Shown here: positions 7,064-16,059 of the stretch, one piece after another | How positions within the stretch are numbered: the first letter of the stretch is position 1 | How the letters are laid out: each line of letters starts with the position of its first letter | Source of the DNA: Tessaracoccus massiliensis | GTDB taxonomy: Bacteria; Actinomycetota; Actinomycetes; Propionibacteriales; Propionibacteriaceae | NCBI RefSeq assembly: GCF_000826065.2 | Contig: NZ_LN623542.1 | Location: 280,715-344,714, forward strand | Length of the DNA stretch: 64,000 bases | Direction: 5' to 3' | Notes under the pieces: generated by a model | Database searches by the model: none | What the model was told of the DNA's origin: nothing | The model's input: the letters and a program-made list of their open reading frames with translations, nothing else | Position numbers and translations under genes: made by a program

Positions 7064-7323
7064 GCGCGGTTCTCCTTCGTCAGGCCCCCGGACCGCTCTC
7101 GATCCGGATGCATCGGGCCTTTCGAGTCTAGGCAGCAGCCCGGCCCATCCGGGGGTACTTGCCGAAGCCGGAGCCCACCCCAAGGGGTGTGTGACGTGGG
7201 CCCTCACTTCCGACGGACTCAGGCGTAGCATCGTCAGTACCGGTGGCACCGAGCAGCATCGACGCCCGCCCCAGCGCACGCCGCGCAGCCCTCCCCCCGC
7301 CATCGGCAACCACGGGAGGAATC

Positions 7324-7550
7324 ATGAGAAAGCTGTTGACCGTCCTCATCACGGGGGTGCTGGCCGCAGCCTCGCTCCAACCCTTGCCGGCCGCCGCGGC
7401 CCCGGTCCCCCAACTCCCAATGGCACGCCCACCTCGACCCGGACACCGGGCTACCGACCTTCACCCCACCCCGACACATCGACCCAACCCACAAACCCAG
7501 GCAACACCCCAGATATCTGCTGCGGCAGATTTGTCCCGCGTCAAGTAGTT
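7324..7550 (+). pseudogene. Signal-peptide start fused to a DUF222/HNH tail
   Basis: ATG 7324 follows GGGAGGAATC and encodes a clean signal peptide (MRKLLTVLITGVLAAASLQP, then LPAAAAP). At about 7405-7411 the sequence changes. In the next frame it reads SQWHAHLDPDTGLPTFTPPR, then HIDPTHKPRQHPR, the C-terminal end of a DUF222/HNH endonuclease (compare SQWQVHLDEVTGLPWFTPPR in the intact gene at 32095). Homology stops near 7515, where IS sequence begins. Two unrelated gene fragments and an insertion sequence are thus stacked here. The secreted protein's original body is unknown. Confidence 0.7.
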
Positions 7551-8215
7551 GGCAGGATTTCTTCTTGTTCAAAGGTGGGGACGGTCGTGCTGGCTCGCCC
7601 GAGGTGGACCTCGAGGGGCCGGTTCCAGGCGATCGCCTCGTGAGGGCGCTCGGTGTTGTACTCGATGCGGTAGTCTTCCGCTCGTTCGACCAAGGTCAAC
7701 GCGTCGGGGATCTCGTCGAGGAACAAGCGTTCGTACTTCAACGTGCCGAACCCGCGTTCGCGTGAGCCGTTCTGCCCGGGGCTCTTGACCCAGGTCCGGA
7801 CGTGTTGGAGTTCGGGGTGCGAGGTGATGAACAACTCGAAGTCGATCGAGCGGAACGGGCCACCGTTGTCGGTCACGATCGTGACCACGGGCAGCACCTC
7901 ACCAGTGATCTCATTGATCGGGCAGGCATCGGCCAACGGGTGACCGAACAGGGCCTCGTAGTCAGCCAAGGCGAGCTCGACCGCGGCGATCGCGTCGTGC
8001 TTGTTCCCGGTGGGTGAGACATGCCAGGGATGCTCATACTTCGAGTACCAGTCCCGGCATCCTGCGATCCGCCACGTGCCGCCCGTGGTGGTCTCGAACT
8101 CGGAGAAGTCCAGTTGCCACACCTGGTTCGGGCCATCAGGCATCTTTGCGAACGCGGCTCTACGGTCGGCGGCGAGTTCACGGCGCTGCTTCTGGTACTG
8201 CGACGCCAGCAGTAG
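7541..8215 (-). pseudogene. Second IS3-type transposase, 3' fragment
   Basis: The frame ending at 7541 reads SQYQKQRRELAADRRAAF near its break, then NQVWQLDFSEFETTTGGTWR, VTIVTDNGGPFRSIDFELF, SPGQNGSRERGFGTLKYERL and YNTERPHEAIAWNRPLEVHL. All three DDE acids of an rve-type integrase core are present (LDF, TDN, the E of SRERGFG), but the N-terminal HTH half is missing. The upstream junction near 8215 goes directly into another orfB in a different frame. Confidence 0.75.
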
Positions 8216-9072
8216 CCAATGGCTGAGTGGAGCCGGCCGGTGTTGTACCAGTCGACCCACATCAGCGTGGCCAGTTCGACCTCGTCGACGGTCTTGAACG
8301 GTCCGTCGAGCTTGATGCACTCGGTCTTGTAGAGCCCGATCACCGACTCGGCCATCGCATTGTCGTAGCTGTCTCCGACGCTGCCGATGGAGGCCAGCGC
8401 CCCGGCCTCGCAGAGGCGTTGGTGGTAGCGGATGGCTGTGTACTGACGCCCGGCATCGGAGTGATGAATCAGCCCATCGACGTGGTGGCCGGCACGGCCG
8501 CGGACCCACAGCGCCATCTCCAAGGCGTCGAGCGGCAGTTCGGTCGGCATCCGGTGATGGGTGCGCCAGCCGACGATCCGACGGGAGAACACGTCGGTGA
8601 CGAACGCGGTGAACACCATCCCCGACCACGTCGGCACATAGGTGAAATCGACGATCCACAACCGGTTCGGAGCCGCAGCGGTGAAGTTGCGTCCCACCAG
8701 GTCAGCCGGCCGCGAAGCGGTCTCATCCGGCTGGGTGGTGATGACCTTCTTCCGGCCTCTGACAACGCCTTGCATCCCGTGTTCGCGCATCAGCCGGGCC
8801 ACCGTGCAGCGCGCCACGTCGACGCCGTCGCGTTTGAGCAGGTGCCACATCTTGCGGTATCCGGCCACGCCTCGGCCCTTCGCCCGATCCGCTTGCACCG
8901 CCTCGATGTGTTCCCACACCACCGCATCCGAAACAGTCCGCGCCGACGGCGTCCTGGCTCGGGCGGCGTAATAGGTTGACGGGGCGATCTTGCAACCGTG
9001 CTGGGTCAGCACGCGGCAGATCGGCTCGACCCCGAACCGAGCCCTGTGGTCGTCGATGAACTCGACTACCAC
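8216..9072 (-). pseudogene. IS3-family orfB transposase, 3'-truncated
   Basis: GTG 9072 opens VVEFIDDHRARFGVEPICRV, the usual start of IS3 orfB. The HTH_21 region is followed by the rve core (RLWIVDFTYVPTWSGMVFTA, LIHHSDAGRQYTAIRYHQRL, GDSYDNAMAESVIGLYKTE). Sequence homology ends at LMWVDWYNTGRLHSAIGY, about 15 residues before the normal end; the frame then runs on meaninglessly to 7873. The catalytic residues survive, but the element has no second terminus. Confidence 0.8.
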
Positions 9073-9403
9073 GGCAGTCGCGGGTCGAGCTCCCGCTGCG
9101 CATGAAACTCGACGCCGCCATCAGTATCTCGTTGGCGCGCTTGAGCTCACGCACTTCCTGCTCAAGCTGCTTGATCCGGGCCGCGTCACTGGTGGTCGTC
9201 CCCGAGGCCTCGCCCGCGTCGATGCGGGCTTGCTTCGTCCACCCGCGCAGCGTGTCTGGATTGACCCCGACACGCTGCCCGATCCTGATCACCGCCTGGT
9301 TCATCGACAACGAAGGCTCCTCCTTCATCGCTTCGCGAACCAGACGGATCGAGCGGTCCCGCAACTCTGGCGGATACTTCCTCGGTGCTGGCATGGTCAT
9401 CAT
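9066..9403 (-). pseudogene. IS3-family orfA, frameshifted near its end
   Basis: The start MMTMPAPRKYPPELRDRSIR, then RIGQRVGVNPDTLRGWTKQA, is the HTH of IS3 orfA, followed by a leucine-zipper-like stretch IKQLEQEVRELKRANEIL. After ILMAASS a one-base change disrupts the frame. The expected ending (AQRELDPRLPW, stop TAG at 9068-9066) lies in another frame and overlaps the orfB start, so the usual orfA/orfB slippage arrangement is broken. Confidence 0.75.
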
Positions 9404-9540
9404 CCTTTCGTGGAATCAAACCCTCCACCAGACCCGGGGCGGTTCACTGCCTCTGACTGGTGCCCTGCTGGGCTACCGACAAACTGATCACGCCCGGCGG
9501 CGGTTCAGACTGCCCTCAGAAGAGGAACTTCCCAGCAGAC

Positions 9541-10092
9541 TCATGACCAGGGCCAGTCCAACCCCCGCACCACCTCTGACGGCATCGGCACACGTAACAC
9601 GTCGTTCGGGCCCGTCAGGCGAAGCAGGGCTCTCTCCCGGCTGAGTTCCCGAGAAACACCGCCACGTCTGAGTTCAGGAAGTGGCCGCCAGCAGAGCTCA
9701 GAACGCCCCCGCACTATGAGCACAGGGACCCAACTCTCCCAGAACGGCAACAGCGGATCGCCCGACCACGCCCACCCGACAGCTACGATCCTGTCGAAAC
9801 GAACGAACCCCCGACGCGTCAGGATCCCCTTCCGAGTGACGACAACCGCGAACGGCCAGCCACCCACCCACGCTCCACACACGAATAGCAAGGCGAGAGC
9901 GGCTGTAAACCATTGGAGACCTTCCAGCCCCAGAAGGACCGCTGCACACCCGAGCGCCCCCCAACCCATCACTTGAGCGGATCCAAAGCTGAACATGAGC
10001 CCGGGCTGGCCAACACCGTGAACCATGCGACGCCCCGACCGCTTGGCAGAGGCCGTCTCACTCAGCCAGACCTCCGGCGCCACTATCGCCAC
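9541..10092 (-). CDS. Membrane protein of unknown function
   Basis: 183 residues from GTG 10092. Residues about 35-80 hold two adjacent hydrophobic segments (GWGALGCAAVLLGLEGL and FTAALALLFVCGAWVGGWPF), followed by VVVTRKGILTRRGFVRFDRI, which resembles the PH-like segment behind a membrane hairpin in actinobacterial PH-domain membrane proteins. The start overlaps the end of the upstream small secreted-protein gene (GTGGCGATAG), so the two are probably translated together. This is the last recognisable gene of the leftward operon before the IS remnant. Function unknown. Confidence 0.55.
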   Translation of the reverse strand: MAIVAPEVWLSETASAKRSGRRMVHGVGQPGLMFSFGSAQVMGWGALGCAAVLLGLEGLQWFTAALALLFVCGAWVGGWPFAVVVTRKGILTRRGFVRFDRIVAVGWAWSGDPLLPFWESWVPVLIVRGRSELCWRPLPELRRGGVSRELSRERALLRLTGPNDVLRVPMPSEVVRGLDWPWS

Positions 10093-10370
10093 CTGCTGCG
10101 GCTAGCCCAGCGGTCTGAGCCGCCGCTCACGGCACTATTCGCTCCCCCCCTGTAGGCCGACAACGCCGCCTTGGTCGTCCGGCGGTAAGCAGCGTTCTTC
10201 TTACTACCCCAGCGGTGTAAGCCCATGCGTTCGGATTTCGCTCCGCCCATTCGAGACATGAGCGCTCCGTGTCTATCCACCGGATCGGCCCACGCCGGGC
10301 CTACCGCCCCCACACCCGACACCAACGCAACCGAAACCGCGCCCCACAGCGCACAACGCAACCACCGCAT
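10083..10370 (-). CDS. Small secreted or membrane-anchored protein
   Basis: Starting at ATG 10370 (MRWLRCALWGAVSVALVSGV) the 95-residue product has a signal peptide ending near GPAWA. The mature part is short, basic and Ser/Arg-rich (KSERMGLHRWGSKKNAAYRR). A longer start at 10406 would put MRPALRSKVLVV in front and spoil the signal peptide. No family is recognised. It overlaps and probably couples to the membrane-protein gene downstream. Confidence 0.5.
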   Translation of the reverse strand: MRWLRCALWGAVSVALVSGVGAVGPAWADPVDRHGALMSRMGGAKSERMGLHRWGSKKNAAYRRTTKAALSAYRGGANSAVSGGSDRWASRSRWR

Positions 10371-10406
10371 AACCACAAGTACCTTTGATCTAAGGGCAGG
10401 TCTCAA

Positions 10407-10580
10407 CGGTGAGACCCGCGACTGCGCACATCGTGCACCCCCCGAGATACTCTGTCAAACGACGATGCGTCGAATCTCATCCTGATGCGGGATACCCGCC
10501 AGTTGGTGGGCGTTCGCAACCGAGGGATGCACGCGCTGTTGGAACGCTATAGCGCAGCGGGGTTAGAGCCTGGTTGGCTC
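10407..10580. other. Upstream region of the small secreted-protein gene
   Basis: No supported gene. It probably carries the promoter for the two leftward genes below 10370, but no clear -35/-10 pair stands out. Confidence 0.3.
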
Positions 10581-10735
10581 TCGGCTTCTTCTTGGGCCTC
10601 AGCGTTCTTCCTGGTGGTGATGTGGTGGGTACAGCGGCTCAGCACTCGGTCAGCGCATCGCGCCAGAGGACCCACGTGAACGATGGTTGGCTTTCTGTCG
10701 CCGCTGAAATGTAGGCGGTGTGGAGAGCGGCGAAA
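10581..10735 (-). pseudogene. Duplicated 3' fragment of the 11590-12006 gene
   Basis: The sequence is closely similar to 11618-11772. Read on the minus strand it gives FAALHTAYISAATESQPSFT, then WVLWRDALTE, against FAALHAAYVSVVTEGKPSFA, then WVHWHDALAR in the full gene. A one-base deletion after DALT puts a TGA in frame, yet similarity continues beyond it (CTHHITTRKNAEAQEEAE in the shifted frame). Only the last third of the gene was copied. Confidence 0.75.
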
Positions 10736-10825
10736 CGGGCTGCCGGGCGAGATCCGCAGGGCGGGCGTGCTACTGTAGTGAGTAGCAAGACCTCTTGCTC
10801 CCCTTTTATAGGGTGAGCGGGGTTG

Positions 10826-10855
10826 GCCCTTGGTGTAGCTACGGCAGCCAAGGGC
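10826..10855 (-). terminator. Hairpin after the DUF3800-like gene
   Basis: GCCCTTGG (10826-10833) pairs with CCAAGGGC (10848-10855), immediately beyond the stop of the leftward gene ending at 10860. There is no U-run, so it could equally be an mRNA-protecting 3' stem. Confidence 0.5.
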
Positions 10856-10859
10856 TGCT

Positions 10860-11516
10860 TCAGTTTTCCAGCAAGGTGGTCATCGCTTCGATGTGCGAGA
10901 AGTAGCTGCTGTCGCCGCGAACGACCTGCTGACGGTAGGCGCTGCACACCACATCAGGCAACCACAACAGTTGCTCCTCCGCAGGCGTGACCTGAAGCAG
11001 GCTGGTGCGCGCAGATATCACACCATCTGCGACAGCTTGGGCTTTCGTCCGCGCGTCCCGGTTGGCTTGGCGTCGCTCTCGGCGCCGCTCCAGGACGAAC
11101 AGCGACACCGGATCACCCACGGGAGATGAGCCTGTGGCTAGATGCGCCAGCAGGGCAGTCAGTGCTGCAGCACGTGCCTCCTCACCATCGACGTCCCCTG
11201 GCTCGATCGCGCGACGATGCGCGATGACGCACCATTCCATCCCCGCCGGATCAGCCAACGCCGTGAGCATGGCATGGGTCCGTAACCGGCCGTCCTCACT
11301 ACGCAGAGCATCAGTGGTGTGCCACCAACTCGAACCTGCCGCAGCGACAATCTCTGAGCGCAGGAGGTCACGCTGATCGGGCTCCACGACCACAGCGCTC
11401 ATGATGTAGAACTTGTGCGGGTGCGCGGGATCGACGCTGTAGGACTCGTCCAGATACGCTACGGGACCCGTGTTGGACAGGTAAGCACCGCGGACGGCCG
11501 ATGTCATCTCCCGCAT
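10860..11516 (-). CDS. DUF3800-like protein
   Basis: About 218 residues. The opening VAYLDESYSVDPAHPHKFYI and the late LLWLPDVVCSAYRQQVVRGD resemble DUF3800, an RNase H-like fold protein often found on mobile elements. D and E of YLDES and the late D of LPDVVC are the usual conserved acids. The middle (LERRRERRQANRDARTKAQA) is basic. The start is uncertain: GTG 11522, ATG 11516 and ATG 11507 are in frame and none has a strong ribosome binding site. It ends the operon segment with a hairpin. A nuclease or defence role is only a guess. Confidence 0.55.
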   Translation of the reverse strand: MREMTSAVRGAYLSNTGPVAYLDESYSVDPAHPHKFYIMSAVVVEPDQRDLLRSEIVAAAGSSWWHTTDALRSEDGRLRTHAMLTALADPAGMEWCVIAHRRAIEPGDVDGEEARAAALTALLAHLATGSSPVGDPVSLFVLERRRERRQANRDARTKAQAVADGVISARTSLLQVTPAEEQLLWLPDVVCSAYRQQVVRGDSSYFSHIEAMTTLLEN

Positions 11517-11589
11517 TCTCACCGCAGCAGCCTACCGGGCGCACTGAAGACGGTCAGCGTGGTGGCAGGGGAAGCTCCGCGCACTTGGA

Positions 11590-12006
11590 TCAGCGGACTC
11601 TCGTTTCTCTTTGGCCTTCGGCTTCTTCTTGGGCCTCGACATTCTTCCTGGCGGTGATGTGGTGGCTGCAGCGGCTCAGGACGCGGGCCAGCGCGTCGTG
11701 CCAGTGGACCCACGCGAACGATGGTTTGCCTTCTGTCACCACCGAGACGTAGGCGGCGTGGAGAGCGGCGAACTCCTGCTGGATGGCCCGGTTCCGCGAT
11801 AGTTCGATCAACAGTGTGTCTTGGAGGTGGTAGGTGAGGAACAGCCACTCGAACCACTCCTCCATGGACGCGAACATCGCCGGCGACAACTCGCTGGCTT
11901 CCTGCGGGGGTGCCGACGACGCGCCGGTTTCCATCTGGGCTAGCCGCTTGTCGAAGGCGATCAGGGTGTCGGTGACTTGGCGTGCCAGGTCGTCCATGGA
12001 GGTCAT
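11590..12006 (-). CDS. Element protein of unknown function
   Basis: 138 residues from ATG 12006 (MTSMDDLARQVTDTLIAFDK). The start is fixed by the ATGA overlap with the FtsK-gamma gene and by AGGGATATCGCT upstream. It is helical, acidic in the first half (FASMEEWFEWLFLTYHLQDT), with a basic/Gln-rich tail (SHHITARKNVEAQEEAEGQ). No family is recognised. A partial second copy of its 3' third lies at 10581-10735, so the locus has undergone duplication. Coupling to the gamma-domain gene suggests a joint role. Confidence 0.6.
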   Translation of the reverse strand: MTSMDDLARQVTDTLIAFDKRLAQMETGASSAPPQEASELSPAMFASMEEWFEWLFLTYHLQDTLLIELSRNRAIQQEFAALHAAYVSVVTEGKPSFAWVHWHDALARVLSRCSHHITARKNVEAQEEAEGQRETRVR

Positions 12007-12545
12007 AGCGATATCCCTTCCACCTGTGGTGTCCGTGCGGCCGCTGACCGCACTCGGCCGAGCGAGGCATTCAGTTGAGCCGGTTTGATCAGCACAGCGC
12101 GGGGAAATGGGCCGTTGGCTGGCCCGATGATCTTCTGGGACTCCAGCACCGCCAGCACTTTCTCTGCCATGTCTGCGTCGATGTGGAGGTCGCGTTGCAG
12201 CATTGAGGACGACACCACACCTTTGGTGGCTGCATACCGGCACGCGTCCGTGGCTGCATCCGCCACTGCGGCAGTGCCCGCCGGTGTCGGGGGCGGCGGC
12301 AATTCCGTGGAATAGTCCGGCGAGGATGCCACCAGGGTGTCGTCGTCGCCGACGACCCACAGTGGGCGCTGCACAGGTTCCTCATCCCACGATGGGGGCT
12401 CGGGTGCAGTGTCCACACTGGCCGGGTACAGGTCTAGGTCTTCGCGGGGTGTGGACACGGTTTGCCACCCGGCCGACGACGATGCCGACCAGTCGACGCA
12501 CTCAGGTTCGGTGGGCACCCACACCGGCTCAGCAGGTTGGCTCAC
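12003..12545 (-). CDS. Stand-alone FtsK gamma-domain-like protein
   Basis: 180 residues. Residues 1-98 are low-complexity, rich in Pro, Glu, Asp and Ser. Residues about 99-155 (TDACRYAATKGVVSSSMLQR, then DLHIDADMAEKVLAVLESQK, then IIGPANGPFPRAVL) match the winged-helix gamma domain of FtsK/SpoIIIE, where SxSMLQRxLxIGxxRAxxxxDxLExxGIxGPxxGxxxRxVLV is the family pattern. No ATPase domain is attached. In FtsK this domain reads polar DNA sequences and contacts XerD, so a DNA-binding adaptor is likely here. GTG 12545 overlaps the stop of the secreted-protein gene and its own TGA overlaps the next ATG. Confidence 0.7.
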   Translation of the reverse strand: MSQPAEPVWVPTEPECVDWSASSSAGWQTVSTPREDLDLYPASVDTAPEPPSWDEEPVQRPLWVVGDDDTLVASSPDYSTELPPPPTPAGTAAVADAATDACRYAATKGVVSSSMLQRDLHIDADMAEKVLAVLESQKIIGPANGPFPRAVLIKPAQLNASLGRVRSAAARTPQVEGISL

Positions 12546-13213
12546 AGCCGCGGCAGCTGCGGCAGCGCCGGTGGCGGCAACGGCGGAGGCGTCGTCGGCT
12601 TGGGCTGCGGAACCGGTGTGGTCGGGCCGGGCTGCGGTGCCGGTGGCGGAAGGGGAGACGGCTGGACCGGACCGGGCTGCGGTGCCGGCGCAGCAACCTC
12701 AACGGGTTCCGCCGCGGGACCAAACCGGACCATGTTGTTCAACACCCACTGGGTCGACTGGACGTACCGTCCACCGACCGCCGACACGACCGTGGCCTGC
12801 GCGTAGGTACGGCAGCCGTTACGGCCCGTCGAGGCGTTGTCGCATTCGGTGCGCCAGCCCCTGCCCGAGGCATCCGTCCAGGAGACGGTGCCACCGACAC
12901 GGCCATACGCCCCCAACGGGTTGGAGCTCCACACCGAACGAGGCGACGGGGTGTAGGTCAGGTTGTTGAACACCCACCCGTTCGTCTGCACCCAACGGCC
13001 ACCCGACTTCACGATCTGGGTAGCCCAAATCTCGGTACGGCACCGCTGCGCCTGCGAATACGGCTCGCACGACGTGCGCCACTGACGCCCACCCACCGTG
13101 TGCTGGCCAGGAGTGATGTAAATGTCCACGTCCGCGTGCGCAGCCGGGGGTCCAACCACCGCGAGGGTGGTCGTGATGAGGCCCGCCAGGACGGCGAGCA
13201 CGAGCTTCTTCAT
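12542..13213 (-). CDS. Secreted protein with duplicated Cys-containing module
   Basis: 223 residues from ATG 13213, which has AAAGGAAC upstream and gives a clean signal peptide (MKKLVLAVLAGLITTTLAVV, cleavage near AHA at 27). An in-frame ATG at 13366 would bury it. Residues about 28-165 contain two copies of a module with GRxWRTxC, RCRTE and GWVFNNLTY features (ITPGQHTVGGRQWRTSCEPY; VQTNGWVFNNLTYTPSPRS; RGWRTECDNASTGRNGCRTY; STQWVLNNMVRFG). Residues 166-223 are Pro-rich. The same module forms the N-terminus of the M15 peptidase gene at 22128, so element and chromosome share it. Probably a wall- or sugar-binding domain (inference). Confidence 0.8.
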   Translation of the reverse strand: MKKLVLAVLAGLITTTLAVVGPPAAHADVDIYITPGQHTVGGRQWRTSCEPYSQAQRCRTEIWATQIVKSGGRWVQTNGWVFNNLTYTPSPRSVWSSNPLGAYGRVGGTVSWTDASGRGWRTECDNASTGRNGCRTYAQATVVSAVGGRYVQSTQWVLNNMVRFGPAAEPVEVAAPAPQPGPVQPSPLPPPAPQPGPTTPVPQPKPTTPPPLPPPALPQLPRL

Positions 13214-13362
13214 GATTGTGTTCCTTTCGGTTAGTTCGGGTGAGAAGGAAGAAGGACTTCCATCGTCTCGAACTGGTCCGACAGGACTGTTGGCGGGGGC
13301 TGGTAGCTGGGAGGCTGTGGTCGGTGCCACGGCTGCGGGCGCCAGGTGAAGAGGGTTCTGGG
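13214..13362 (-). other. Leader between the small Cys gene and the secreted-protein gene
   Basis: 149 bases. An open frame continues in phase into the secreted protein from ATG 13366 but would ruin its signal peptide, so I treat this as a 5' leader. No hairpin or promoter is obvious. Confidence 0.3.
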
Positions 13363-13617
13363 TCATGCCACGGCCTCCGTATCGGTTGTGGCGCCAGCTC
13401 GTGCTGCGGCGCAGGCAGGGCAGATCCACAGGCGAGTGTCGATGTCGTCTGCGCCGATGGTGGTCCATCCGAGATCGGTGGCTGCCGCGGCGGCTTCGGC
13501 GGCGTTCCAGAACAGGGCCGTGGTGCCGTCGGTGTCTGTCAGGTAGGTCGCGTGACCGGCGGGTTGTTCGTCGGGGAAGATGTTGGCGCACAGCATGACG
13601 TGGACTTGCTGGATCAC
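13363..13617 (-). CDS. Small protein with C-terminal CPxC motif
   Basis: 84 residues from GTG 13617 (overlapping the TGA of the preceding gene). The sequence MIQQVHVMLCANIFPDEQPA, later DDIDTRLWICPACAAARAG, ends in a CPAC pair that could be half of a zinc site, with Cys10 a possible partner. Such small Cys-pair proteins are common in actinophage and element early operons. Function unknown. Confidence 0.5.
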   Translation of the reverse strand: MIQQVHVMLCANIFPDEQPAGHATYLTDTDGTTALFWNAAEAAAAATDLGWTTIGADDIDTRLWICPACAAARAGATTDTEAVA

Positions 13618-13823
13618 TGGTTTGTCTCCTTCAACGCCGTGATACAGGTCGGGCAGAGCCAGTGCTGCCGGACGGGCAGGCCGGTGGCCGGGTCGGTGGT
13701 GACGCTGCGCCAGGAGGCGCAGGCGTCGGCCGGGAGTGCAGCGATGTGGCAGTCGCGATTCCGTGGAATATCGAGGGTGGGGTTGCCGCAGAACACGAGC
13801 TCCTCGAGGGCGGTGGTGGTCAT
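13614..13823 (-). CDS. Small protein with CPTC motif
   Basis: 69 residues from ATG 13823, whose ATGA overlaps the stop of the initiator gene. It contains Cys at VFCGNP, DCHIAALPADACASW and a closing WLCPTCITALKETNQ, giving several candidate zinc ligands. It resembles its neighbour in having a terminal CPxC, so the two may be diverged duplicates or partners. No family name can be given. Confidence 0.5.
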   Translation of the reverse strand: MTTTALEELVFCGNPTLDIPRNRDCHIAALPADACASWRSVTTDPATGLPVRQHWLCPTCITALKETNQ

Positions 13824-15055
13824 GACGCTTCGACCTCCTCGGGGTTGTGGGGGTGGAGCCGTTCTTCCAGCAGGAAGTCCTGGATGCTCACGTTGTGGGG
13901 GATCTTCGAGACGCCGGGGTAGCGGGCCACCCACCACGGGATCGGCTCGTTCGCGGTCGGGTCGCCAGCGAAGCGGGCGCGGGCTCGCTCGACCTGCCAC
14001 AGCGGGTGGAAGGCCGGGCCCTCGTCGGTGAGGGAACGCGGCTTGGGAGGCGCGACGGCGGGGTTGGGAGCAGCTTCCACCGGGATGCCGTCCAGGCGAG
14101 CAACGACGAGGCCACCGAGGCGGCGCACTTCACCCGGAAGGCTGTTCCCGGCGAGGATGTCGTGGATCAGGCGAGCCGACCACGCCGCGTCGAGACGTTC
14201 CCGCAGCATCGCCGCGACCCGAGCGACAGTGCCGCCGTCGAGGGCCTGCATCGACTCCGGCAGGCAGCTGCGGACCAGCTCCCAATCCGCTGTGTCGGCG
14301 GCGGTCACGTCAGCCCGGGGCTGTCGGGTTCGGTCGACGTCTCGAACCGTCCCCTGACCGTCCCTGACCTGAACCGGGCGATCTCCGGAAGGTTGGGGGG
14401 TAGGGGGGTTAGGGATGGTGGTTCTAGATGGTGGTTCTTCCTTATATAGGTGCGTCACCAGTGTCGCAGCGGTAGCGTCACCAGTGTCGCACCGGTGCGC
14501 CGCTGCGTCACTGGTGTCGTAGTGGACTTCACTAGGGGTTTCGCCCGTGACGGCTTCCGGTGCGTCACCGGTGACGTAGCGGACGCCCACCGCTGCGTCA
14601 GATTTGACGTAGCGGACTTCACTAGGGGTTTCGCCCGTGACGGCTTCCGGTGCGTCACCAGTGTCGTAGCGGACGCCCACCGCTGCGTCAGATTTGACGT
14701 AGCGGACTTCACTAGGGGTTTCACTTTTCACGACATTGGGGCGTCCGGTGGCTTGGGCGGCTGGTTTCGCGCCGGGAATATTGAGCTCGAACACCGAGTT
14801 CGTCTGACGTAGCCCGCCACCCTTGTGTCCGATCATGTAGCCCGGGCGTCGCGTGATGAAGCCGGCTTCCTCCAGTGCCGCCAGGGCCCGCTCGACAGTT
14901 CTGCGTCCGCACTCCACCGTCGAGGCAATTGTCTCGATGTAGGGCCAGGCCTCGTCCTCGTCGTTGGCGTAGTTGGCCAGCACGAGGAGGACCGCCTTGT
15001 TGGTGGTGCTCCCGACGATGGACGAGAACGCCCAGTTCAAAGCTCGAACGGACAT
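13820..15055 (-). CDS. Replication initiator-like protein with winged-helix N-terminus
   Basis: 411 residues. Residues 1-95 are a winged-helix domain (VRALNWAFSSIVGSTTNKAV, then IETIASTVECGRRTVERALA, then LEEAGFITRRPG) of the type found in plasmid and phage initiators. Residues about 111-195 are a 30-residue repeat (GETPSEVRYVKSDAAVGVRY...TGDAPEAVT) encoded by the iteron array. Residues about 200-250 are low-complexity. The C-terminal part (ADWELVRSCLPESMQALDGG, then AAWSARLIHDILAGNSLPGE; WWVARYPGV) looks like a helical partner-binding domain. With iterons inside the gene and an AT-richer tract toward its 3' end, the layout copies phage lambda O. Translation couples to genes on both sides. 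Confidence 0.7.
   Translation of the reverse strand: MSVRALNWAFSSIVGSTTNKAVLLVLANYANDEDEAWPYIETIASTVECGRRTVERALAALEEAGFITRRPGYMIGHKGGGLRQTNSVFELNIPGAKPAAQATGRPNVVKSETPSEVRYVKSDAAVGVRYDTGDAPEAVTGETPSEVRYVKSDAAVGVRYVTGDAPEAVTGETPSEVHYDTSDAAAHRCDTGDATAATLVTHLYKEEPPSRTTIPNPPTPQPSGDRPVQVRDGQGTVRDVDRTRQPRADVTAADTADWELVRSCLPESMQALDGGTVARVAAMLRERLDAAWSARLIHDILAGNSLPGEVRRLGGLVVARLDGIPVEAAPNPAVAPPKPRSLTDEGPAFHPLWQVERARARFAGDPTANEPIPWWVARYPGVSKIPHNVSIQDFLLEERLHPHNPEEVEAS
14421..14705. repeat. Seven 22-bp iterons plus AT-richer tract: candidate origin
   Basis: On the plus strand seven copies of TGCGTCACCAGTGTCG followed by (C/T)A(G/C)(C/T)GG start at 14451, 14474, 14504, 14561, 14594, 14651 and 14684. 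Variants 5 and 7 read TGCGTCAGATTTGACG. Copy 4 contains the perfect palindrome CGTCACCGGTGACG, so each unit is a dyad. Copies 4-5 and 6-7 form 90-bp higher-order repeats. Adjoining at 14421-14450 is an AT-richer stretch with CTTATATAGG. All of it lies within the initiator gene. Confidence 0.7.
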
Positions 15056-15058
15056 GAC

Positions 15059-15374
15059 TCAGCCCGCCTGACGGAGTTGCTCGAAGGGATCGCTGAGTCG
15101 ATACACAGCGGGGCTACCGCCGGATGCCGGTCGCAGAAGCCCCAGCCACCCTGGCTCGATGAGACTGCCCAGGTGCCTGCGGGTTGTCAGCTTCCGGAAG
15201 GAGCGTCAGCTCCGCAACACGGGCCAGCGGCGGCGCAGTGACCCCGTCATCGTCAGCGTAGTAGGCCATCGTGGCGAGGACGAACTTGCGTTCCATCCCG
15301 TATACCGGAGCGCGCAACGCCCAGTTCACATGCCGAGCAATGTTCTTGCGCTCGCTTTGGCGGTCACCCATCAC
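15059..15374 (-). pseudogene. Frameshifted winged-helix protein next to the initiator
   Basis: The frame from GTG 15374 (MMGDRQSERKNIARHVNWAL, later YGMERKFVLATMAYYADDDG) is a short relative of the initiator's N-terminal domain. After ARVAELT the reading becomes meaningless, but a +1 shift near 15190-15200 restores a winged-helix second half (SFRKLTTRRHLGSLIEPGWL, then GLLRPASGGSPAVYRL) that stops at 15059, just before the initiator ATG. The full product would be about 104 residues. Either the gene is broken, a sequencing error is present, or CTCCTTCC is a slippery site; nothing favours the last strongly. Confidence 0.6.
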
Positions 15375-15376
15375 GA

Positions 15377-15610
15377 TCAGCCCTCCACCTGCGTCGGCGA
15401 AGACGGGCTACTGGGAGACCCGGCCAGCCGGCCCGCCTCATACTCCTTGATCCGCAGCACGGTCGACGGCGCGAACAGCGCTTGGCGCCCGTTGTAGGCA
15501 TCCGGCTTATAGGTCACATCCTCCCGCTGAACACGGCGGTAGACGGTTGACGGGTCCAGGCCAAGCTCAGCAGCGAGCTGGGGGACGCTCAGGAACACGA
15601 TGTCTTGCAC
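15377..15610 (-). CDS. Helix-turn-helix (Cro- or excisionase-like) protein
   Basis: 77 residues from GTG 15610 (VQDIVFLSVPQLAAELGLDP, then STVYRRVQREDVTYKPDA). The motif LSVPQLAAELGLDPSTVYRR is a clear helix-turn-helix; the remainder (YNGRQALFAPSTVLRIKEYE) resembles excisionase/MerR-like small proteins. A TTG start at 15646 is possible but would begin inside the divergent control region. It is the first gene of the leftward operon and faces the repressor across about 110 bases, the position of cro or xis in temperate phages. Confidence 0.65.
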   Translation of the reverse strand: MQDIVFLSVPQLAAELGLDPSTVYRRVQREDVTYKPDAYNGRQALFAPSTVLRIKEYEAGRLAGSPSSPSSPTQVEG

Positions 15611-15723
15611 GCATTGATCATTGCACAACCTTAGCTTTAACGGCAAACACTGCTATCCGGCGTGTCGACCGACAAAGCCGCCATCTCTAGATATAAGAGC
15701 GCTGCTGTGCAAGACTTATTGCA
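15601..15723. promoter_or_regulatory. Divergent control region between HTH gene and repressor
   Basis: The nonamer GTGCAAGAC occurs at both ends on opposite strands: plus at 15707-15715 just before the repressor ATG, minus at 15610-15602 overlapping the GTG of the HTH gene. Each is flanked by a TTGCA half-site (ATTGCACAA at 15620-15628; TTATTGCA at 15716-15723). TAGATATAAG at 15688-15697 could be the repressor -10. No Shine-Dalgarno precedes ATG 15723, so the repressor mRNA may be leaderless or nearly so. These are candidate operators. Confidence 0.5.
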
Positions 15724-16028
15724 TGACGCTGCAGCAACTTGATGTCGGAGTTGTCCCGGAGGTCACCACCGGTGATCGCATGAGGATTTCTCTGAGACAC
15801 GCCAACCTGTCAGTTCAAGAGATGGCCGACTACCTGGGCGTTGCCCGCACATCGGTGGGGAACTGGCTGAATGACCGCGTTCGAATCTCACGGCAGACGA
15901 TGCTCTTGTGGGCCATGCGGACGGGCGTGCCGATTACCTGGCTGGAAACGGGTCAGGCCCCGGTCGATGACCGGGGCCTGGAGGAGCGCGCTCGGAGGGA
16001 TTCGAACCCCCAACCTTCTGATCCGTAG
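15723..16028 (+). CDS. Phage-type repressor whose 3' end lies in tRNA-Arg
   Basis: 101 residues from ATG 15723 (MTLQQLDVGVVPEVTTGDRM). Residues 19-60 hold a Cro/CI-type helix-turn-helix (VQEMADYLGVARTSVGNWLN). The last dozen residues (RARRDSNPQPSDP) are translated from the complementary strand of the tRNA-Arg 3' half, and the TAG sits at its anticodon arm. In BPs-type mycobacteriophages attP lies inside the repressor gene and attB is a tRNA-Arg gene, so integration swaps the repressor C-terminus and leaves a short stable form of about 103 residues. The match in length, host gene and position suggests the same device here. Confidence 0.75.
   Translation: MTLQQLDVGVVPEVTTGDRMRISLRHANLSVQEMADYLGVARTSVGNWLNDRVRISRQTMLLWAMRTGVPITWLETGQAPVDDRGLEERARRDSNPQPSDP
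15987..16028. other. Inferred attachment-site region (att)
   Basis: The overlap between the repressor's 3' end and the 3' half of tRNA-Arg is where element and chromosome DNA must join if the element entered at this tRNA. The precise core cannot be set without the second att copy, which I did not find in the window. Confidence 0.45.
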
Positions 16029-16059
16029 TCAGATGCTCTATCCGTTGAGCTACGAGCGC
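15987..16059 (-). tRNA. tRNA-Arg (anticodon ACG)
   Basis: The minus strand folds as a full cloverleaf: acceptor GCGCTCG/CGAGCGC, D-arm GCTC...GAGC, anticodon stem TCTGA/TCAGA around CTACGGA (anticodon ACG), T-arm GGGGG TTCGAAT CCCTC. Position 15987 supplies discriminator G; CCA is not encoded. Its 3' end abuts the integrated element. Confidence 0.95.

Follow-up and report, generated by a model that had tools for sequence, protein, structure and literature searches.

A repressor gene ending inside tRNA-Arg(ACG) of Tessaracoccus massiliensis, the probable remnant of a prophage with integration-dependent immunity

Why should a phage-type repressor gene end inside a host tRNA gene? In a 64,000-nt stretch of the Tessaracoccus massiliensis genome (contig NZ_LN623542.1, positions 280,715 to 344,714; hereafter the window), an ORF of 101 codons running from ATG at 15723 to TAG at 16026–16028 is antisense to the 3' 43 bases of a tRNA-Arg gene (Table 1). 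Its last 14 codons and the stop lie within the antisense tRNA, the stop codon starting on the last base of the anticodon complement. A first-pass annotation of the sequence had described a repressor reading into tRNA-Arg and stopping at the anticodon, which the coordinates confirm, and had proposed that its activity depends on prophage integration. The deduced protein is of the CI/Cro HTH type (Pfam HTH_3, 6e-08; Phage_CI_repr, 6.2e-08), and residues 7–100 of its 101 match PHROG 2328, "transcriptional repressor" (6e-26; profile of 128 positions), a significant match over the protein that places it in this family.

In the integration-dependent immunity (IDI) of mycobacteriophage BPs, as described in the available part of PMC4557955, the short repressor of 103 aa is active and the long one of 136 aa is degraded via an ssrA-like tag. 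The likeness to BPs (gp33-103/gp33-136) lies, as far as that part of the paper goes, in an attP within the repressor gene, an active prophage form of about 100 aa and a facing HTH gene (PMC4557955). The repressor family, the tRNA-Arg attB, the orientation, the short form and the facing HTH gene all match what IDI would lead one to expect.

Table 1. Features of the repressor locus and of the element to which it belongs (window coordinates)
Feature	Position	Strand	Evidence or remark
Insertion sequences, far side of the element	7531–9447	-	IS3-family copy and part of another IS
Not present in the close relative G032; sets the outer bounds of the remnant	7089–15985	.	Alignment
Replication-initiator-like protein, 411 aa	13820–15055	-	HTH_36 3.7e-13; phrog_1032 5e-20
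Short ORF, weak match to a replication-initiator N-terminus	15114–15374	-	phrog_1032 0.011
Divergent HTH gene, excisionase/Cro-like, 89 aa; real start possibly further in	15377–15646	-	phrog_66 1.5e-4
Inverted 70% copy of the operator-like site, on the facing ORF's first codons	15608–15627	-	Putative function
Operator-like site on the repressor start codon	15706–15725	+	20-nt site, putative function
CI/Cro-type repressor, 101 aa, prophage (short) form	15723–16028	+	ORF and profile matches
Hairpin in the repressor ORF, 12-bp stem, 3-nt loop	15954–15980	-	-27.2 kcal/mol; proposed tRNA terminator
Predicted att core	15986–16025	.	Analogy with the 38–40 bp cores of G591, G131 and G453
tRNA-Arg(ACG), 3' part being the predicted attB/att site	15986–16059	-	ARAGORN

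The match of the facing HTH gene to phrog_66 (excisionase/regulator) is weak, and an NCBIfam scan of this gene gave no match. Two 20-nt sites, one on the repressor start codon and the other on the first codons of the facing ORF, are mutually inverted with a 70% match, and are operator candidates. GTGCAAGAC is found at these two sites only in the whole 64 kb, the shared 9-mer of the site on the facing ORF being at 15602–15610, and 300 shuffles of the control region yielded a perfect inverted pair of at least 9 bp five times. The BPs operator was sought in the window and is absent from it.

Homologues of the repressor occur in phages. A tblastn search at E<=0.01 yielded 225 phage records (153 Mycobacterium, 66 Gordonia, 4 Arthrobacter, 1 Curtobacterium and 1 Kosakonia), all below 60% identity to the window repressor; that of Kosakonia phage Kc166BP, a weak match (2e-3), was set aside. 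Ten of twelve phage repressors compared contain an antisense tRNA T-arm in the ORF followed by further C-terminal sequence, the cores of Fishburne and Purky being recognised by the wider motif only. As annotated, these ten are 101–140 aa long and end in AA (6 proteins), KAS (two), VA (one) or PA (one). The Arthrobacter repressors of Berka and BlueFeather have no tRNA core in the ORF, and in a set of 53 loci the tRNA T-loop motif was present in the repressor ORF in 36 and absent in 17. The record of phage Hope, a relative of BPs, has AttP annotated inside the repressor gene, with the integrase next on the same strand. Hope shares with the window a homologous repressor and tRNA-Arg type sequence, but the antisense tRNA frame reads RRDSNPQPSDP in the window and RPEGFEPPTF in Hope.

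In bacterial genomes, the whole 101-aa protein matched in 9 of 96 (E<=0.001), and an 87-aa query, i.e. the repressor minus its tRNA-coded residues, matched in 10 of 198 genomes of the family and 12 of 394 of the class (E<=1e-6), the T. massiliensis genome being counted each time. The union comprised 24 loci, of which 23 were evaluated after one at a contig edge (G583) had been dropped. The reading frame terminates within a tRNA gene in 15 of the 23, namely tRNA-Arg(ACG) in 9 and tRNA-Lys in 6; the longer query includes the tRNA-coded residues and was alone in recovering G003, G030, G012 and G059, two of which overlap tRNA, and with the 87-aa query the count is 13 of 19. A repressor running into tRNA-Lys was also seen in a contig of Rhodococcus sp. 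06-235-1A. The remaining 8 homologues do not overlap a tRNA (G138, G347, G121, G374, G365, G520, G012 and G059). Two of these, G012 and G059, have far longer ORFs resembling other HTH proteins, and two others, G138 and G347, have a longer repressor with an integrase directly downstream, i.e. the uninterrupted arrangement. The G138 protein is 63% identical to that of the window over 70 residues and ends in LALVA, after which the integrase follows. In none of the 23 does the repressor stop shortly before a neighbouring tRNA. Two minor features may be recorded here: contig C198 of G138 (L151, L178) carries the closest repressor found, with no tRNA motif in its ORF and an integrase frame ending in RWVA, and the end of the G121 repressor (L153) resembles a decayed tRNA-Lys T-arm, an integrase being 7 kb away.

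Within the genus, tRNA-Arg was located in 37 of 39 genomes, and 30 tRNA-Arg loci were inspected, of which 28 were retained after removal of one at a contig edge (G030) and one mis-located (G025). The repressor is absent at 25 of these 28 sites and present at 3 (G000, G003 and G011), and no tRNA locus free of the element was found to carry it. A 46-bp, 98% copy of the 3' part of tRNA-Arg occurs about 18 kb from the full tRNA-Arg in G026 (C34:280305–280350), probably owing to another element at the same site.

If immunity depends on integration, the viral form of the gene should be longer than the integrated one, and this form could be rebuilt by joining the ends of intact prophages. G005, of the same genus, has a 15.6-kb prophage in tRNA-Lys with terminase, portal and tape measure genes, 35-bp att repeats at 1039359 and 1054883, and an integrase at 1053852; joining its ends turns the integrated repressor of 102 aa into one of 128 aa ending in GQAVAA. 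In the same genome, the att copy at C1:1054883–1055015 is followed by 23 bases and then a second complete tRNA-Lys, as in tandem tRNA genes or stacked integrations. Eight virus-contig pairs gave three cores of 36–37 bp with the tails ALEAA, GRRVA and AAAAA, the other five comprising four with no core and one with a 15-bp palindrome, which was discarded. Nine genome cases gave six cores of 35–40 bp, with viral ends ERAA (G591), KLAA (G131), IDRD (G445), ARAA (G130), PSAA (G453) and RLAA (G395); no core was found in G374. The 17 joins attempted across the two sets include 8 without a usable result, among them G005, which was settled separately as above. All 10 informative attP joins lengthen the repressor, by 10–41 residues, and the long forms end in AA in 8 cases, VA in one and neither in one (G445, RD), as compared with 28 AA ends among 1288 stop-to-stop ORFs from the same kind of loci. 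G591, G131 and G453 share with the window both the tRNA-Arg and its antisense frame and have attP within the repressor ORF, and by analogy with them an att core is predicted in the window (Table 1). The core of G591 and G453 extends to immediately before TAG, and the stop is therefore contributed by the host DNA.

The first-pass annotation had called for a version of the repressor with a longer C-terminus adjoining an integrase, and such versions exist, in G138 and G347 as they stand and in G005 and G591 when the ends are joined. It had also suggested looking for an ssrA-like tag on the reconstructed attP form, and most of the rebuilt long forms have a tag-like end (AA or VA), G445 with its RD end being the exception. 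The att core is inside the repressor ORF in all 10 reconstructed relatives and the integrase is beside the repressor in viral order in G138, G005 and G591. The window ORF ends in the tRNA, as IDI would predict, but has no second core and no integrase next to it.

The wider surroundings in the window also differ from the BPs group. A search with PF00589 detected no tyrosine integrase in the window or in the contig to its left, the matches on this contig being far to the right, at 704–707 kb. A second att copy had been expected to the left of the window, but a scan of the window plus the adjoining 40 kb on the left gave no copy at a length of at least 14 bases, and a genome-wide search with a 22-mer and up to 3 mismatches gave only a tRNA-Trp gene; other weak att-like matches are tRNA-Trp and tRNA-Asn genes. 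Elsewhere in the genome, three adjacent tyrosine recombinases with equal scores throughout occur at four places (C14, C15 twice and C16), sets which resemble a recombinase-trio element. On the far side of the element, 8212–9447 is a nearly complete IS3-family copy, 99% identical to another copy in the genome, and 7531–8211 is part of a second IS. The idea of a working switch in the window is therefore given up: the element is a remnant and not a working IDI system and, having neither an integrase nor a second att site, has no way of restoring the long form of the repressor. In the close relative G032 a catalase gene adjoins tRNA-Arg, i.e. the site is empty, and the alignment ends at window position 7088 and restarts at 15986. 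A 40-kb prophage was also considered, the usual left neighbour of the tRNA in several relatives being about 25 kb to the left of the window, and was rejected because G032 limits the insert to less than 8.9 kb.

Phage-type genes still present beside the repressor are the divergent excisionase/Cro-like gene, by its weak match, and the replication initiator, in which repeated segments of the ETPSEVRYVKSDAAVGVRY type are seen (14455–14724; ORF translations). Compared with the fetched prophage loci, the ORFs of the element other than the repressor gave weak, host-type or no matches, and PADLOC detected nothing in six of them. A TerL probe (PF03354) for lost structural genes was uninformative, missing the positive controls G005 and G591. 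The first-pass annotation had noted a region with no phage structural genes, and indeed none was recognised among the window ORFs scanned; since the intact relative G005 of the same genus carries such genes, their absence here is best read as decay.

Taken together, the locus is very probably one end of an IDI-type prophage at the 3' end of tRNA-Arg(ACG), with its far end lost and its repressor fixed in the short form. In the viral DNA before integration, the repressor reading frame would have continued through attP and ended in a tail similar to an ssrA degradation tag. Integration would have swapped this tail for tRNA sequence, the antisense strand of which supplies a stop at the anticodon, resulting in a stable short repressor of 101 aa. 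The other end of the prophage, with the integrase, the second att site and probably the structural genes, would have been lost later; IS copies now occupy the lost side and may have caused the loss, leaving the repressor locked in the short form and joined to the tRNA. IDI is supported for the repressor family by the comparison of sequences, and we infer it from there for the window gene, whose own copy would once have had a tag-like tail and whose product may still repress. The points against IDI are the 8 of 23 homologues outside tRNA genes, the RD end of G445, the joins that gave no usable result, the missing integrase and lost tail of the window gene, and the weak or absent matches between the other ORFs of the element and the prophages compared.

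An element other than a phage, such as an integrative plasmid or conjugative element that had borrowed an IDI-type repressor, is unlikely. It would fit the FtsK-gamma domain protein at 12003–12545, whose few plasmid matches include FtsK translocases, as well as the presence of a replication initiator and the lack of any recognised structural gene. However, the initiator matches phage families, the repressor and the facing gene are in a phage layout, and the annotated relatives are all phages (G005, and G591 with its terminase). Furthermore, the region of 9.4–13.6 kb, which consists of the FtsK-gamma protein, a secreted protein (12542–13591) and ORFs without useful matches, may be unrelated DNA, judging from the relatives that the secreted protein has in host DNA; against phages this protein gave no match. 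A 52% relative of it is encoded elsewhere in the genome (L145, 3349–3753), on a different contig and beside the IS3 element's other copy.

The remnant prophage could also owe its repressor to selection, as an immunity gene domesticated against related phages, for the ORF, the HTH and the operator-like sites are intact while the integrase is gone, and in G051 an intact repressor likewise lies in tRNA-Lys on a contig with no tyrosine integrase. We regard this as rather improbable: both G003 and G011 carry a repressor cut short at its N-terminal side, so loss is tolerated, and recent decay explains an intact repressor equally well. No tyrosine-integrase match was found on the G011 contig or within 280 kb of the G003 repressor. 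Incidental read-through, in which an ordinary repressor lost its own stop at integration and stops in the tRNA by chance, no switch having ever existed, is highly improbable. In its favour, any gene pointing into an att site would enter the tRNA, G445 has a long form without a tag-like end and the tail of the window gene is lost. Against it, several families show this arrangement repeatedly, with the core within the ORF and with two frames at tRNA-Arg, and AA ends are found in 8 of 10 viral forms as against 28 of 1288 background ORFs.

The prophage end at tRNA-Arg has a further feature, a hairpin within the repressor ORF (CAGGCCCCGGTC-GAT-GACCGGGGCCTG) five bases from the 3' end of the tRNA. 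On the tRNA strand this stretch has a z-score of -4.75, and among 300 synonymous-codon shuffles its energy was reached in 2 and its stem in 1; the tail is weak (ACCCGTTT). Of 64 repressor loci submitted to such shuffling, after eight near-duplicates had been dropped, three were too short, and 15 loci recovered with the 87-aa query lay outside this set. Among the 45 repressors whose ORF contains a tRNA core, 23 folded better than 95% of their shuffles (mean z -1.58), compared with 0 of 16 without a core (mean z +0.19). The P value for the difference between the two groups (Mann-Whitney, 2e-5) is optimistic, since the sequences are related and some of the 16 may hold a core missed by the motif. 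The hairpin is common and not universal, Hope, Taheera, Hilltopfarm and G045 being among those with no excess folding. The six bases following it contain 2.69 T on the tRNA strand and 1.28 on the other in 29 loci that were chosen for having a hairpin (of 31 submitted, two lacked a located core) and in which conserved codons may contribute to the count. At empty tRNA-Arg sites, 20 of 25 have a hairpin with a stem of at least 7 bp no more than 80 bases away from the tRNA 3' end, followed by 2.76 T in six bases on the tRNA strand versus 1.20 on the other, and integration displaces this hairpin of the host site.

We propose from these sequence features that the hairpin in the repressor gene serves as a replacement terminator for the host tRNA. 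In many IDI phages a single DNA stretch might then be the tail end of the repressor, the border of the attP core and, after integration, the tRNA terminator in place of the displaced one, a reading to which we give an even chance, slightly raised by the hairpins at empty sites. If it is true, each strand of this DNA serves one of the two, repressor or tRNA, through identical bases, and the persistence of the segment in remnants such as the window, G003 and G011 would be explained. A terminator in this place would also explain how phages enter tRNA genes without spoiling the 3' ends of the tRNAs, and would account for a constraint on the repressor's end. A literature search, with the founding IDI paper out of reach, returned no account of an IDI repressor gene that contains a hairpin, in the portions of papers covered.

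The locus had been thought novel as a case of IDI outside the mycobacteriophages, a view that does not hold, since IDI has already been published for Gordonia (PMC5559632) and Bifidobacterium (PMC6109161), both consulted in part. From the sections of these papers that were accessible, about half of the Gordonia phages with a tyrosine integrase and an identified attP show IDI (PMC5559632), M. abscessus has nine IDI prophages (PMC8092301) and Bifidobacterium has two prophages with similar systems (PMC6109161). As in the window, the att core in these systems is near the 3' end of the repressor gene, many being at tRNA genes (PMC5559632, PMC8092301, PMC6109161, in the same sections), but they belong to working or presumed working phages, whereas the element in the window is a remnant, and its host is of a different family. 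Arthrobacter phage Galaxy is similar and was rejected as a case of IDI, its attP being outside the repressor according to the excerpt of PMC5513430 available. None of the retrieved passages of PMC5559632, PMC5513430 and PMC6109161 concerns Propionibacteriaceae. The locus is ordinary as a kind; the points of interest are the new hosts, the set at tRNA-Arg and, most of all, the coding hairpin. The evidence for IDI is extended to Propionibacteriaceae and five other families of the class, at tRNA-Arg and tRNA-Lys, and the intact prophages supply testable predictions of attP and tag. By analogy with BPs, the locus would show what remains after such a switch has lost its way back, i.e. a repressor tied to the tRNA in the form that is active in BPs. 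In cluster K1 mycobacteriophages a putative terminator stem-loop is located by the attP core, with attB in the host tmRNA gene (PMC3203893, in part), and the likeness to the window lies in a stem-loop beside the core and an attB in a host RNA gene; in the passages seen, that stem-loop is not described as part of a repressor ORF, whereas the one in the window is coding and within the immunity repressor. Hope, without excess folding, differs from the window in this respect, and the small Gordonia phages GRU3 and SallySpecial have a coding hairpin as in the window.
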